Below are positions 16,862 to 51,700 of a stretch of DNA of 64,000 nucleotides, in pieces. Origin of the DNA: Oscillospiraceae bacterium (lineage in GTDB: Bacteria; Bacillota; Clostridia; Oscillospirales; Acutalibacteraceae). The notes under the pieces were generated by a model. It ran no database searches. It saw only the letters and a program-made list of their open reading frames with translations, and had not been told where the DNA came from. Location: NCBI GenBank assembly GCA_902802375.1, contig CADCLS010000016.1, positions 1 through 64,000 on the forward strand, given 5' to 3'. How positions within the stretch are numbered: position 1 is the first letter of the stretch; each line of letters opens with the position of its first letter. The position numbers and the translations under genes were made by a program.

Positions 16862-16951
16862 TGGCGGAGTAGGAGAGATTTGAACTCTCGCGCCGGTTGC
16901 CCGACCTACTCCCTTAGCAGGGGAGCCTCGTCACCACTTGAGTACTACTCC
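16862..16951 (-). tRNA. tRNA-Ser(GCT)
   Basis: Acceptor GGAGTAG pairs with CTACTCC, discriminator G and encoded CCA. The anticodon loop CTGCTAA gives GCT, and the long variable arm marks a class II serine tRNA. Its 3' end faces the mobile-element remnant, a typical integration geometry. Confidence 0.95.
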
Positions 16952-17000
16952 ATAATGATAATCATTCATTGATATATATTAAGTTTACAAAAAATCTAAA

Positions 17001-17089
17001 TGGCGGAGAGGATGGGATTCGAACCCATGTGGCATTGCTGCCAAACGGTTTTCAAGACCGCCTCGTTATGACCGCTTCGATACCTCTCC
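17001..17089 (-). tRNA. tRNA-Ser(TGA)
   Basis: Acceptor GGAGAGG pairs with CCTCTCC, discriminator G, CCA encoded. The anticodon loop CTTGAAA gives TGA; long variable arm present. It lies 49 bases upstream of tRNA-Ser(GCT) and is probably co-transcribed. Confidence 0.95.
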
Positions 17090-42397: not shown

Positions 42398-42443
42398 ACC
42401 AAAACGACAACCCTCACTGCAAAACGATGCAGTGATATATTAT

Positions 42444-42516
42444 CTTAACCAATAGTCGTAGCTGTGGCGCTACGGTAGAAACATTTGGGCCATTTATCCA
42501 AAACTATACTGGTAAG
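42444..42516 (-). promoter_or_regulatory. Purine riboswitch aptamer, guanine-type
   Basis: Minus strand shows the core ATGGCCCAAATGTTTCTACC, the P3 hairpin GTAGC/GCTAC and the J3/1 strand GACTATTGG, with P1 formed by CTTACCAGTA and its partner TATTGGTTAAG. The base at the specificity position (74) is C, as in guanine/hypoxanthine/xanthine-sensing aptamers, not U as in adenine ones. Confidence 0.88.
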
Positions 42517-42645
42517 CTATTAAATTGACATGCTTATCGTAACACATAAATCTACCTTTGTCAACAAAATATGCGCCGTTTCCTTTACTTTGTATACCCT
42601 GACAATTTATATTAAAAATATTTGCAATTATTGTGTAAAAAACAC

Positions 42646-49828: not shown

Positions 49829-49905
49829 GGAGGCATAGCTCAGCTGGTTAGAGCGTACGGTTCACATCCGTAAGGTCGCGGGTTCGAGCCCCTCTGTCTC
49901 CACCA
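49829..49905 (+). tRNA. tRNA-Val(CAC)
   Basis: Cloverleaf with acceptor GGAGGCA/TGTCTCC (one G-U pair), anticodon stem TACGG/CCGTA and loop TTCACAT giving CAC, discriminator A and encoded CCA. The T-stem GCGGG/CCCTC contains a C-U mismatch, unusual for an essential tRNA. Promoter and terminator are in place. Confidence 0.88.
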
Positions 49906-49907
49906 TG

Positions 49908-49944
49908 AAAGAAGCGTCTTTTGTCTACCAAAAGACGCTTCTTT
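49908..49944 (+). terminator. Terminator of tRNA-Val
   Basis: AAAGAAGCGTCTTTT / AAAAGACGCTTCTTT, perfect 15-bp stem with a 7-base loop. Confidence 0.85.
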
Positions 49945-49949
49945 CAATG

Positions 49950-50120
49950 ATATCCGTTCCTGCCAGAACGGATGGTATATGCTTCGCATATGATATCCCC
50001 TTCGGGGATGATATACGCCTGCGGGCGTATCAGGAACGGATATTATATCATATTGCGACGAAGGAGCAATATATCATACTGGGCGTCAGCACGGTATATC
50101 ATATCGCCGCAAGGCAATAT
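49950..50120 (+). repeat. Hairpin array 1, upstream of the four-helix-bundle gene
   Basis: An outer 13-bp stem (ATATCCGTTCCTG 49950-49962 with CAGGAACGGATAT 50031-50043) encloses hairpins ATATGC-TTC-GCATAT (49977-49991), ATCCCC-TTC-GGGGAT (49995-50009) and ATACGCC-TGCG-GGCGTAT (50013-50030). The left outer arm can alternatively pair locally with GAACGGAT (49966-49973). After the outer stem come ATATTGC/GCAATAT (50050-50072), a GTCA-loop hairpin (50076-50097) and a GCAA-loop hairpin (50101-50120), joined by ATATCAT spacers. The array is transcribed towards the following gene or belongs to its leader. Confidence 0.8.
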
Positions 50121-50183
50121 ATCATTGACTTTTTCTAACGATGTGGTATATTTTTTAGAGAAGAAACGTAAGGGGTACATAAT

Positions 50184-50546
50184 ATGTCCGATAATAAATT
50201 GCTTGATCTTTCTGTTGAATTTGCAATTTCTGCCGTCAATCTTGCAGACAACATCAAGACGCCGAAAAGTTCATATTTGATCGATCAATTTGCCCGCGCG
50301 GGAACATCAGTCGGCGCTAATATTCACGAAGCCCAATATGCACACAGTAAAGCGGATTTTATCGCTAAGCTTGAAATTGCTCTGAAAGAATCAAACGAAA
50401 CAAGTTATTGGCTAAAGTTAATGTTTGAAACCGGAAGGATTAATGAAGAACAGTATAAAAACACCGAAAGATTATGCGGTAATATTCGCAGACTTCTGAT
50501 CGCCTCATGTTCTACTGCGAAAGGAATCAATAAAAATGGTCAATAA
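50184..50546 (+). CDS. Four-helix-bundle protein (S23/IVS family)
   Basis: 120 residues. LLDLSVEFAISAVNLADNI, LIDQFARAGTSVGANIHEAQ, HSKADFIAKLEIALKESNET and YWLKLMFETGRINEEQY are the four helices of the family first seen in proteins encoded by 23S rRNA intervening sequences; the diversity-generating accessory protein Avd shares the fold. AAGGGG lies 9 bases before the ATG. It is flanked by hairpin arrays and overlaps the methyltransferase by 11 bases. Molecular function unknown; a basic pentameric nucleic-acid-binding bundle is the family model. Confidence 0.88.
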   Translation: MSDNKLLDLSVEFAISAVNLADNIKTPKSSYLIDQFARAGTSVGANIHEAQYAHSKADFIAKLEIALKESNETSYWLKLMFETGRINEEQYKNTERLCGNIRRLLIASCSTAKGINKNGQ

Positions 50547-51132
50547 TGTTTCAGCCCATTACGACTCATTGATCGATGAAAACAACGATCCTGTTTTTGA
50601 TCCCGAACCTTTAAAGATATACATGGATCGTTGGGATGGCGCCGCGTTCTTTGATTTGTTGGACTTAAATGTTAGCAAATCGGTGCTGGAGATTGGCGTT
50701 GGTACGGGCAGATTGGCAATACGTACCGCTCCTCTTTGCGGAGCATTTACAGGAATAGATATATCTGAAAAAACCGTTGAAAAAGCAAAACAAAACTTAA
50801 AAAGATTCAACAACGTTACATTGATTCACGGTGATTTCAGCACGTTCGTTTTTTCCGAAAAATATGATGTGATCTATTCCTCGTTAACTTTTATGCATTT
50901 TAATAACAAAGCCGATGCTATTGTAAAAATCCATTCGTTGCTAAATCTCAACGGAATCTTTGTTTTATCAATCGATAAAAGCAGAAATAAATATATTGAA
51001 TGCAACGGAAGAACTGTTGAGATATATCCGGATGATCCGGATACCACAAAAACATACCTGCAAAAAGCCGGATTTGAAATTGAAAGCATAACGGAAACAG
51101 TTGCCGCTTATTTGTTTTCGGCAAAGAAATGA
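50536..51132 (+). CDS. Class I SAM-dependent methyltransferase
   Basis: 198 residues. Motif I VLEIGVGTGRLAI (about 50-62), motif II acidic residue in GIDISEKTVEKA, post-I LIHGDFSTFVF and motif IV-like YDVIYSSLTFMHF. No target-recognition domain, so a small-molecule, tRNA or protein substrate is more likely than DNA. The start overlaps the four-helix-bundle gene, and the pair is bracketed by the two hairpin arrays, so it may be cargo or a working partner of that unit. Confidence 0.85.
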   Translation: MVNNVSAHYDSLIDENNDPVFDPEPLKIYMDRWDGAAFFDLLDLNVSKSVLEIGVGTGRLAIRTAPLCGAFTGIDISEKTVEKAKQNLKRFNNVTLIHGDFSTFVFSEKYDVIYSSLTFMHFNNKADAIVKIHSLLNLNGIFVLSIDKSRNKYIECNGRTVEIYPDDPDTTKTYLQKAGFEIESITETVAAYLFSAKK

Positions 51133-51194
51133 TTCGGCGGTGTACTTTTGGGCGCTTTTAGCTTGGATTTGTACCTTTTAGGCGTTCTTATACA

Positions 51195-51227
51195 GAAAAA
51201 AGCACTTGCGAAAGCAAGTGCTTTTTT
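51195..51227 (+). terminator. Terminator after the methyltransferase gene
   Basis: GCACTTGC-GAAA-GCAAGTGC, flanked by six A's before and six T's after; a strong GNRA-loop terminator usable on both strands. Confidence 0.88.
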
Positions 51228-51231
51228 CAAC

Positions 51232-51390
51232 TATATTCGTTCCTTCGGAACGAGTTATATTGCTTCGCAGTGATATTCGTCCTGCGGACGAGTGAAGGAA
51301 CGAATATAATATCACTTTTCGCGTCAGCGAAAAATATCACGTTTGCCGCAAGGCAAACATATCACATCGAGCGCAAGCGAGATATATCAC
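51232..51390 (+). repeat. Hairpin array 2, downstream of the methyltransferase gene
   Basis: Same plan as array 1 with different stems. The outer 15-bp stem TATATTCGTTCCTTC (51232-51246) pairs with GAAGGAACGAATATA (51294-51308); the left arm has a competing local partner GGAACG (51247-51252). Inside are TATTGC-TTC-GCAGTG (51258-51272) and ATTCGTCC-TGC-GGACGAGT (51275-51293). After it come TTTTCGC-GTCA-GCGAAAA (51316-51333), GTTTGCC-GCAA-GGCAAAC (51341-51358) and a weaker GCAA-loop hairpin (51366-51383), joined by ATATCAC spacers. Confidence 0.8.
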
Positions 51391-51500
51391 TTTTGCGATT
51401 TCATTCGTTTAAGATGGGTATTTCATAAGGAGCCGAAATCAGGCGAAAAACACAGTTTTTACCTAATTATATCCGTTTTGCGTATTTGTTCTGTAAGCAC

Positions 51501-51544
51501 AATAATACTCAAATTGAGCCGCAAGGTTTGATTTGAGTATTATT
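51501..51544 (+). terminator. Long-stem hairpin, terminator-like
   Basis: AATAATACTCAAAT (51501-51514) and ATTTGAGTATTATT (51531-51544) pair perfectly over 14 bp; CTTTTG follows. Confidence 0.55.
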
Positions 51545-51700
51545 CTTTTGAGAGTGGCTCGAAAAGGACGGTTTTGCCGTAAGGCAAAATTGCAACCTTT
51601 CAGTGAACGGTTGCAAAGTCCGTGGGCGTGTAGCCGCGGCATTCGCGGCGTAGCGAGCCCCCCGCCTCCTCCACCAAGTGGGTATTGGACGAACGCCTTG
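51545..51700. other. G+C-rich structured non-coding block
   Basis: About 155 bases with no credible gene but strong secondary structure: TTTTGCC-GTAA-GGCAAAA, TTGCAACC/GGTTGCAA and GCCGCG/CGCGGC, followed by a pyrimidine-rich CCCCCCGCCTCCTCC run. Composition is unlike the A+T-rich surroundings. The open frame across it has low-complexity content and no ribosome-binding site. It may be a dispersed repeat or a structured RNA. Confidence 0.45.

Follow-up and report, generated by a model that had tools for sequence, protein, structure and literature searches.

A probable mobile cassette of hairpin array, S23/IVP gene and exchangeable passenger behind tRNA ends in Oscillospiraceae

Behind a tRNA-Val gene of an Oscillospiraceae bacterium, in a window of 64,000 nt from contig CADCLS010000016.1 (assembly GCA_902802375.1, hereafter its own genome), a hairpin array, a four-helix-bundle gene of the S23/IVP family and a methyltransferase gene follow one another and are succeeded by a second array. 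The stretch from 49906 to about 51499 would be a mobile gene cassette immediately behind the CCA end of the tRNA; this cassette would belong to a widespread system with a constant part of terminator, hairpin array, promoter and IVP gene and a variable one, namely a passenger gene that is coupled in translation to the IVP 3′ end and has two closing repeats at its right end. That this is a cassette system with exchangeable passengers we regard as highly probable. The best explanation as a whole, a mobile cassette of an undescribed, integron-like but integrase-less system, is probable to a lesser degree, and whether the arrays are the DNA sites of docking and exchange is evenly balanced. A literature search, for which most subscription journals were out of reach, returned no description of this layout.

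Hairpin arrays recur upstream of S23/IVP genes

A sequence-only reading of the window had placed four-helix-bundle and methyltransferase genes between two hairpin arrays, and both gene assignments hold. The bundle gene (50184..50546, plus strand, 120 residues), which encodes the constant protein of the cassette, matches PF05635 at 2e-24 (86.3 bits against a cut-off of 33.8) and both TIGR02436 and PDB entry 2rld at 2e-25; the gene behind it (50536..51132, plus strand, 198 residues) encodes a class I S-adenosylmethionine-dependent methyltransferase (PF13847, 7.5e-18). Array 1 (49947..50127) precedes the pair, and array 2 (51231..51392), with no IVP gene of its own, follows it. The same reading had named two tests in advance, repeated association of arrays with four-helix-bundle genes and covariation within the arrays, and it passed both.

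The association recurs widely. Our first set comprised 110 IVP loci with 114 IVP genes, all from the high-scoring part of the match list, and arrays were called with a motif-free detector that seeks a 6-letter word repeated on the left and its reverse complement on the right. In its strict form it found an array upstream of 48 of the 114 genes, and of the 66 loci without one only 4 had an array within 4 kb on the downstream side; a looser form called 0 arrays in 570 mononucleotide shuffles. Among the best-scoring PF05635 loci (L039-L068) the strict detector found arrays in 5 of 30, a low figure because the highest-scoring IVPs belong to other subfamilies; the fraction of 48/114 therefore depends on sampling. 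For a second set we took the best 80 related loci in GTDB genomes and dropped 8 with less than 300 bp upstream; an array lies upstream in 63 of the 72 eligible loci, a replicate that is not wholly independent, since at least two of its loci, L238 and L252, repeat the IVP and passenger of L098 and L075 from the first set. Record titles in this set name nearly exclusively Clostridia, Oscillospiraceae or related Firmicutes metagenome-assembled genomes, many from animal gut, and two Lentisphaerae/Lentisphaeria. Across loci the recurring order is tRNA ending in CCA, terminator, hairpin array, promoter, S23/IVP gene, passenger and right-end repeats.

The Rfam family Gut-1 (RF01706), to whose model the arrays are related as described below, tracks the protein family at the level of genomes. 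In 250 genomes drawn from the window's family, Gut-1 was found in 110 (89 over the cut-off), PF05635 in 120 and both in 92, with an odds ratio of 20 (p 6e-25) in a statistic that ignores phylogeny and kinship. In a sample of the class, 49 of 291 genomes had Gut-1.

Some related arrangements lie beside this pattern. An array or word-repeat with an IVP gene stands on four scaffolds labelled phage or viral (L303, MT835815.1; L304, MT835590.1; L269; L270), one of which, L303, has a tRNA-like end, terminator, array and IVP gene in the window's order; the labels come from unverified human fecal phage records and IMG/VR, and the scaffolds would be carried by phages or be mislabelled host DNA. In a related class, the space between terminator and IVP gene holds repeats of the words TATTCA/TGAATA and few hairpins (L073, L108, L109, L112, L137, L132 and L186), the last being a truncated IVP on contig C13 of the own genome. 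On contig C8 of that genome (L185, around 58700), a solo ATGATAT/ATATCAT array sits beside a terminator, directly upstream of what looks by eye like an IS30-like transposase gene.

Passengers change behind a constant IVP gene

The passenger's ATG in the window (50536) overlaps the IVP stop codon, and a Shine-Dalgarno-like AAAGGA, recognised by eye, lies within the IVP 3′ end (junction 50520..50546, plus strand). In relatives the IVP 3′ end is often AAGGAGAAT followed by ATGA, so the passenger's ribosome-binding site would lie inside the IVP gene. An open reading frame (ORF) overlaps the IVP stop in 24 of the 48 array-bearing loci of the first set versus 2 of the 66 others.

Exchange was assessed in 45 array-bearing cassettes, the window included, that have an overlapping ORF of at least 60 residues; these hold 34 passenger families. 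Among IVP pairs at least 90% identical (pairs at 100% excluded), 2 of 35 have related passengers, as do 4 of 117 pairs at 80% or more and 7 of 187 at 70% or more; a looser count gives 13 of 620 pairs and includes downstream ORFs that need not be passengers. The window's nearest full-length IVP relative with a downstream ORF (L189, 83%) is followed by a histidine phosphatase gene, and in L191 an IVP 77% identical to the window's precedes a methyltransferase 52% identical to the window's. Passengers can also be more alike than the IVPs they follow: L077 and L258 share 73% in the passenger versus 47% in the IVP, L144 and L203 66% versus 47%, and the same holds for L193/L260 (the L193 IVP is cut by a contig end), L097/L127 and L082 with the window. 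Behind IVPs that are 67% identical, the passenger DNA of L119 and L135 agrees at 97.8% over 134 nt, and the shared stretch starts at AAGGAGAAT; in this one pair compared base by base, the join lies at the IVP 3′ end.

A Pfam scan of the window's passenger and 37 downstream ORFs, some of which do not overlap the IVP gene, found methyltransferases (window and L191), an AAA ATPase (L076), an AAA kinase-like protein (L148), pyrophosphatases (L123, and L086 below the cut-off), nucleotidyltransferases (L098 and L214), GNAT proteins (L108, L144, L202 and L203), a WapI-like protein (L120), a histidine phosphatase (L189) and a GDSL lipase (L215); of two tandem units in L114, one holds a cytidine deaminase and the other a nucleoside phosphorylase. 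No match was obtained for 19 of the 37 ORFs and only a weak one for L141; the L136 ORF (FUR), whose start is doubtful, was left out of the evidence. The methyltransferase of the window is one of many interchangeable passengers, which the sequence-only reading had not seen. By eye and outside the Pfam scan, the passengers of L221 and L204 resemble a NUDIX hydrolase and a glyoxalase, and in L148 a NUDIX-like gene similar to the L221 passenger follows the second array without an IVP gene.

A known anti-phage defence system found no clear support: PADLOC gave no match for the window's IVP, and the window's methyltransferase matched part of mad2 (7.5e-27), the other proteins of that system not having been sought.

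Behind the window's passenger lie two imperfect direct repeats of about 20 nt, TACTTTTGGGCGCTTTTAGC and TACCTTTTAGGCGTTCTTATACA, whose starts are 29 nt apart (51143..51194, plus strand); they were recognised by aligning them by eye with the right ends of relatives (TACTTTTGCTTACTCTTACC...). A second terminator hairpin, an inverted repeat with a perfect 15-bp stem (51195..51228, plus strand), precedes array 2, and 70 nt spanning this region and the start of array 2 are 94% alike in the relative L134.

Cassettes lie behind the CCA end of tRNA genes of many isotypes

A CCA-ended tRNA gene lies within 330 bp of 67 array-bearing loci (both sets and the window), with 16 isotypes represented; in the second set a tRNA is that near in 38 of 63 array-bearing versus 1 of 9 array-less loci. 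A hairpin begins 0-1 nt after the CCA in 60 of these 67. In the window the putative landing place is tRNA-Val(CAC) with an encoded CCA (49829..49905, plus strand; found by ARAGORN and scoring 61.1 bits with the Rfam tRNA model), and right after the CCA begins a terminator hairpin, an inverted repeat with a perfect 18-bp stem and a 5-nt loop (49906..49946, plus strand). The terminator may belong to the tRNA, because post-CCA terminators are common without arrays. In L148 the same 41-nt terminator occurs twice, behind the tRNA and behind the right end.

Comparisons between relatives place the left edge at the CCA. G137 and G002 are 91% identical across 2168 bp and diverge exactly there; behind tRNA-Glu, G045 has a unit but three congeners show a different terminator and flank, with synteny given by two tRNA genes; and in G269 a sequence matching the window from about 51500 stands directly behind the tRNA-Val CCA, with a similar one in G066. 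The window has 1.6 kb more than G269 and G066 between tRNA-Val and a repeat that we call X. On this comparison the cassette's tail would run from 51393 to 51499 (plus strand), an edge uncertain by a few bases, and the right edge of the cassette is less sure than the left. G283 carries an array like array 1 behind tRNA-Val and no IVP gene in the 2.3 kb read beyond it; arrays of this kind would be empty docking sites.

Repeat X itself (51500..51680, plus strand, about 180 bp) lies outside the cassette; by eye it contains a terminator of its own, a T-arm in inverted orientation and a tRNA 3′ end copied in degenerate form. Repeats of about 150-210 bp of this kind stand behind tRNAs in the window, L150 (where the repeat is called Y), L170, L124, L131, L136, L016 and L024, each consisting of terminator, inverted T-arm, body and a direct duplicate of the 3′ end of the tRNA; L150 (G269) has a stack of three, with tRNA-Val on one side and a half array on the other. 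We also observed a second type of IVP element, in which an array-free IVP gene stands just upstream of an intact tRNA-Leu(TAG) in 4 of 5 loci (L052, L061, L062 and L069; not L091). Inverted repeats of about 30 nt enclose these elements, and L052 and L061 have the 5′ part of the tRNA duplicated ahead of the element, L062 a shorter piece of it. Elsewhere in the window, two minus-strand tRNA-Ser genes and a purine riboswitch (16862-17089 and 42433-42531) are ordinary.

Each array is an inverted pair of Gut-1-like halves

Both arrays are real and lie where the sequence-only reading had put them, and the outer stem that it described around short hairpins is present in each. This stem of 15-16 nt closes the left half: 16 nt at 94% complementarity in array 1 (arms 49947-49962 / 50031-50046) and 15 nt at 100% in array 2 (arms 51232-51246 / 51294-51308). 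Folded as single-stranded DNA, the arrays reach -38.5 kcal/mol (z = -4.7) and -33.8 kcal/mol (z = -5.3), respectively, and 0 of 200 dinucleotide shuffles of either folded as well. As claimed, the two differ in stem bases with pairing preserved, and their spacers read ATATCAT and ATATCAC, respectively; a blastn comparison of the window region with itself gave no plus-strand match of at least 40 nt at E 1e-5, and at that level the two arrays thus lack sequence similarity. The further claim that the same loops follow in the same order is not exact: by eye, the left side of array 1 holds an additional TTC hairpin and its right side a GACGAAGG loop, and array 2 has an additional GCAA hairpin.

That reading had also missed the plan behind the arrays, along with the Gut-1 halves, tRNA-Val(CAC), both terminators, the promoter-like sequence and the tie to tRNA 3′ ends. 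The left halves carry ATGATAT (array 1) and GTGATAT (array 2), the reverse complements of the right-half spacers, and each array is therefore an inverted pair. The Gut-1 model matches every half of both: on the plus strand at 49945-50019 (50.8 bits, cut-off 50) and 51228-51303 (44.9 bits), and on the minus strand at 50040-50127 (44.9 bits) and 51304-51392 (41.9 bits), so that one of the four halves in the window, the left half of array 1, passes the gathering score. Rfam classes RF01706 as a small RNA, and the part of PMC2864571 that concerns it lists Gut-1 in 2010 among noncoding RNA candidates known from environmental (human gut) sequences only. Here, by contrast, Gut-1 makes up one half of an inverted, DNA-like array that is linked with tRNA ends and with an IVP gene. 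Arrays whose spacer words are different share its plan: across loci these words vary (GTGAAAT, GTGAAG, GTGATG, ATGATG, GTGATA, AGTTAT and others) and the plan stays constant.

Covariation, the second of the tests named in advance, is strong: with 12 arrays aligned, 21 of the 41 predicted pairs have changed on both sides in one array or more. Compensating pairs could also arise without selection, by palindrome correction during replication, and for this reason covariation alone is no proof of function.

The sequence-only reading had left it between an RNA and a single-stranded DNA structure; our evidence leans to DNA. RNA selection acting on one strand favours G-T on that strand, and the stems of 184 array hairpins hold 17 G-T and 16 A-C in 1000 pairs, in contrast to 112 and 10 in 1380 pairs of tRNA stems from the fetched loci. 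As the stems lack the G-U excess typical of RNA, we read the arrays as probable DNA structures. An earlier form of the test was under-powered (2 versus 2 in its tRNA control) and was replaced by this one. Two points count against the DNA reading: 85 other mismatches in the array hairpins reflect imperfect register, and transcription of both strands would also give G-T and A-C at 1:1.

Between array 1 and the bundle gene, starting inside the last bases of the array, stands a promoter-like TTGACT-16-TATATT with a TG before the second hexamer (50125..50152, plus strand); its 10 of 12 consensus matches are not proof of a promoter.

The IVP is a candidate array-binding protein

An AlphaFold2 model of the window's IVP has four helices (mean predicted local distance difference test, pLDDT, 89.8). 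Its best structural matches are the S23-family entries 2rld and 2gsc, with five chains each among the matches, and weaker ones (E 0.02) are to Avd of diversity-generating retroelements (4dwl and 8ub7). In the IVP tree of 112 rows, a single supported group of 72 contains all 48 array-bearing proteins, the window's included; the other 24 rows of this group are array-free by the strict detector. Spacer class changes 8 times on this tree, whereas 300 shuffles averaged 26.6 changes and never gave fewer than 22; the test used 47 rows with words grouped by hand into 6 classes, L073 relabelled by hand and L141 left out. The co-segregation of spacer word and IVP fits recognition but could, to the detriment of that reading, be linkage alone. 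We think it rather probable that the IVP binds the array; it would do so through the class-specific spacer word, probably as an oligomeric ring like its crystal relatives.

Two known associations of this fold offer comparisons. The intervening sequences of 23S rRNA carry an S23 protein of the same family, PF05635, and are likewise elements in a stable-RNA gene bounded by complementary sequence; here, however, the unit stands behind a tRNA gene, with hairpin array and passenger, and leaves the RNA uninterrupted. Among the Rfam matches listed for the window there is none to 23S rRNA, and the IVP locus lies behind tRNA-Val. An older proposal, reported in the portion of PMC4990558 that treats S23 and these sequences, saw the ORF as a mobility factor. 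Avd shares the four-helix fold, but in our case no reverse transcriptase is present in the unit and none was found in the own genome.

Arrays as boundaries and the search for an enzyme

In several loci an array lies on both sides of a unit. A 209-bp direct repeat (92%) of terminator and array flanks the IVP and kinase-like genes of L148, direct repeats of the array region measure 256 bp (89%) in L076 and 197 bp (96%) in L219, and L114 has its two tandem units plus a third array. Judged from L148 and the window, a unit spans about 1.2-1.6 kb. The 'mobile unit' that the sequence-only reading had thought plausible gains support from passenger exchange, such tandem copies and the occurrence behind many different tRNAs.

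The array would work as folded DNA, as single-stranded hairpins or a cruciform, and would be the site where cassettes are inserted, lost or exchanged; catalysis might come from an unlinked enzyme or from host recombination between arrays. Three candidate enzymes were tried, and none fits as a general partner of the arrays. The Y1 transposase is present in the own genome, but shows no clear association with Gut-1 over the 250 genomes. For a reverse transcriptase primed by the tRNA CCA end, the own genome gave no match, and neither did many array-rich genomes. An integron integrase (TIGR02249) over the cut-off occurred in 0 of the 250 genomes, the own genome included, and the 242 genomes with weak matches to this model all stay below it. 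The attC core motif is the pair RYYYAAC / GTTRRRY; it was found in 0 of 50 arrays, an absence at chance level given a shuffle mean of 0.6 in 50.

Integron cassettes resemble the present units in their small, diverse genes, tandem in places and bounded by structured DNA, and similar passenger classes (GNAT, phosphatase, nucleotidyltransferase, methyltransferase) occur in them. The differences are the lack of an integrase over the cut-off and of an attC core and the presence of an IVP gene in each unit; the cassette system is integron-like in effect, yet it is no integron. In the REP/RAYT and BIME families (repetitive extragenic palindromes with their associated tyrosine transposases, and bacterial interspersed mosaic elements), inverted pairs of short hairpins carry a conserved flanking word, as the arrays do. 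Here, however, the Y1 transposase does not track Gut-1, although the own genome has some, the protein has another fold and passengers are present.

Weighing the explanations

Some of these features could have arisen by ordinary homologous recombination, with the IVP gene upstream and the array downstream serving as homology for RecA and no special enzyme or binding protein involved. This account, which partly overlaps the best explanation, would suit the near-identical IVPs with unrelated passengers and the direct repeats that flank some units; it leaves unexplained how units come to lie behind tRNAs of 16 isotypes, why the hairpin plan is conserved although the stems change and how a join arose between IVPs only 67% identical, and we consider it somewhat unlikely. 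Placement behind tRNAs is what an unlinked tyrosine recombinase of an integrative and conjugative element or a phage would offer, acting in trans on the cassette as its satellite. The 3′ ends of tRNA genes are classic attachment sites, partial tRNA 3′ ends stand ahead of the terminator in L016, L024, L124, L131 and L136, and such enzymes are nearly everywhere, as the weak integron-integrase-model matches in 242 of 250 genomes indicate. Tyrosine integrases are mostly specific for one tRNA, however, against the 16 isotypes used here, and a copy of the tRNA tail downstream of the IVP gene was found in 1 of 32 loci, the window included (L132, weak, with 5 mismatches in 22); we hold this explanation to be quite improbable.

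The arrays might instead be noncoding RNAs bound by the IVP in an Avd-like manner, with passengers as effectors as in retrons, in a system that senses or regulates rather than moves. Such a role would agree with the filing of RF01706 as a small RNA and with the listing of Gut-1 among noncoding RNA candidates in the relevant part of PMC2864571. The fold relatives of the IVP include Avd in ribonucleoprotein structures of diversity-generating retroelements. In retrons, variable effectors stand beside a constant RNA/protein pair, a resemblance to the present layout. Against it, the array sits between the tRNA terminator and the promoter-like site of the IVP gene, and because it lies upstream of that site the IVP messenger would not contain it; an excess of wobble pairs is absent on either strand, and the same plan occurs on both. 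We judge an RNA system unlikely. Least probable of all, and very unlikely in our view, is that the arrays are REP/BIME-like selfish palindromes that gather behind terminators, with IVP and passenger genes as trapped bystanders. When the 30 best Gut-1 loci (L009-L038, taken with some 1.5 kb to either side and in several cases truncated at a contig end) were compared with the window's IVP by tblastn, only 4 gave a match at E 1e-3; Gut-1 is multi-copy with several copies at contig ends, and the own genome has 5 Y1 transposase matches, which makes this reading slightly less improbable. The order and spacing of array and IVP gene are nevertheless fixed in two data sets, an IVP is also present in 92 of the 110 Gut-1 genomes, spacer class follows the IVP tree, and the Y1 transposase does not track Gut-1 over 250 genomes.

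For the mobile cassette itself, a number of observations weigh on the other side. The unit encodes no recombinase gene, and neither enzyme class sought outside it follows the arrays: Y1 transposase (PF01797), with its 5 matches in the own genome, is absent from 47 of the 110 Gut-1 genomes, some of them incomplete (p 0.10), and reverse transcriptase (RVT_1), of which the own genome yielded none, from 68 of 110 (p 0.18). The empty-site comparison that the sequence-only reading had proposed gave the left edge at the CCA (G137/G002, G045 and G269/G066) but stopped short on the right: G137 and G045 have no shared right flank, a host right flank for the G045 comparison having been sought and not found, and the window has no clear target duplication. 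A hairpin stands at the same place in 64 of 139 tRNAs deemed array-free by a crude pattern. Direct repeats of the array region of at least 50 bp downstream occur in only 9 of the 89 array-bearing loci with enough sequence, versus 3 of 49 array-free loci. Half of the array-bearing IVPs in the first set have no overlapping passenger, and in the second set the contrast in overlapping ORFs is absent (21 of 59 array-bearing versus 3 of 9 array-less loci). Four of the 48 array calls are weak or of another type (L073, L141, L116 and L101), and 1 of 14 control genomes, E. coli, gave a sub-threshold Gut-1 match.

Discussion

Sequence comparison shows that the architecture exists and recurs, that it stands behind tRNAs of 16 isotypes and that passengers are exchanged; the earlier interpretation of the locus is partly supported. 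The finding joins Gut-1, an RNA family without a function, S23/IVP, a common protein family with no settled function, and the fast-changing small genes of gut Clostridia.

A wider and more tentative proposal, which we put forward as possible rather than likely, is that S23/IVP proteins are DNA-structure-binding factors of a large superfamily of gene-carrying elements in or behind stable-RNA genes, one branch of which docks through class-specific arrays behind any tRNA CCA end and swaps passengers without an integrase of its own, as an analogue of integrons in gut Clostridia. Binding, excision and exchange are directly testable, because the parts are small. If the wider proposal is true, a single answer would serve two old riddles, the intervening sequences of 23S rRNA and the orphan 'RNA' Gut-1. 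If the cassette reading holds, every tRNA gene would offer a landing site, and gut Clostridia would own an exchange platform comparable in effect to integrons and built from other parts.

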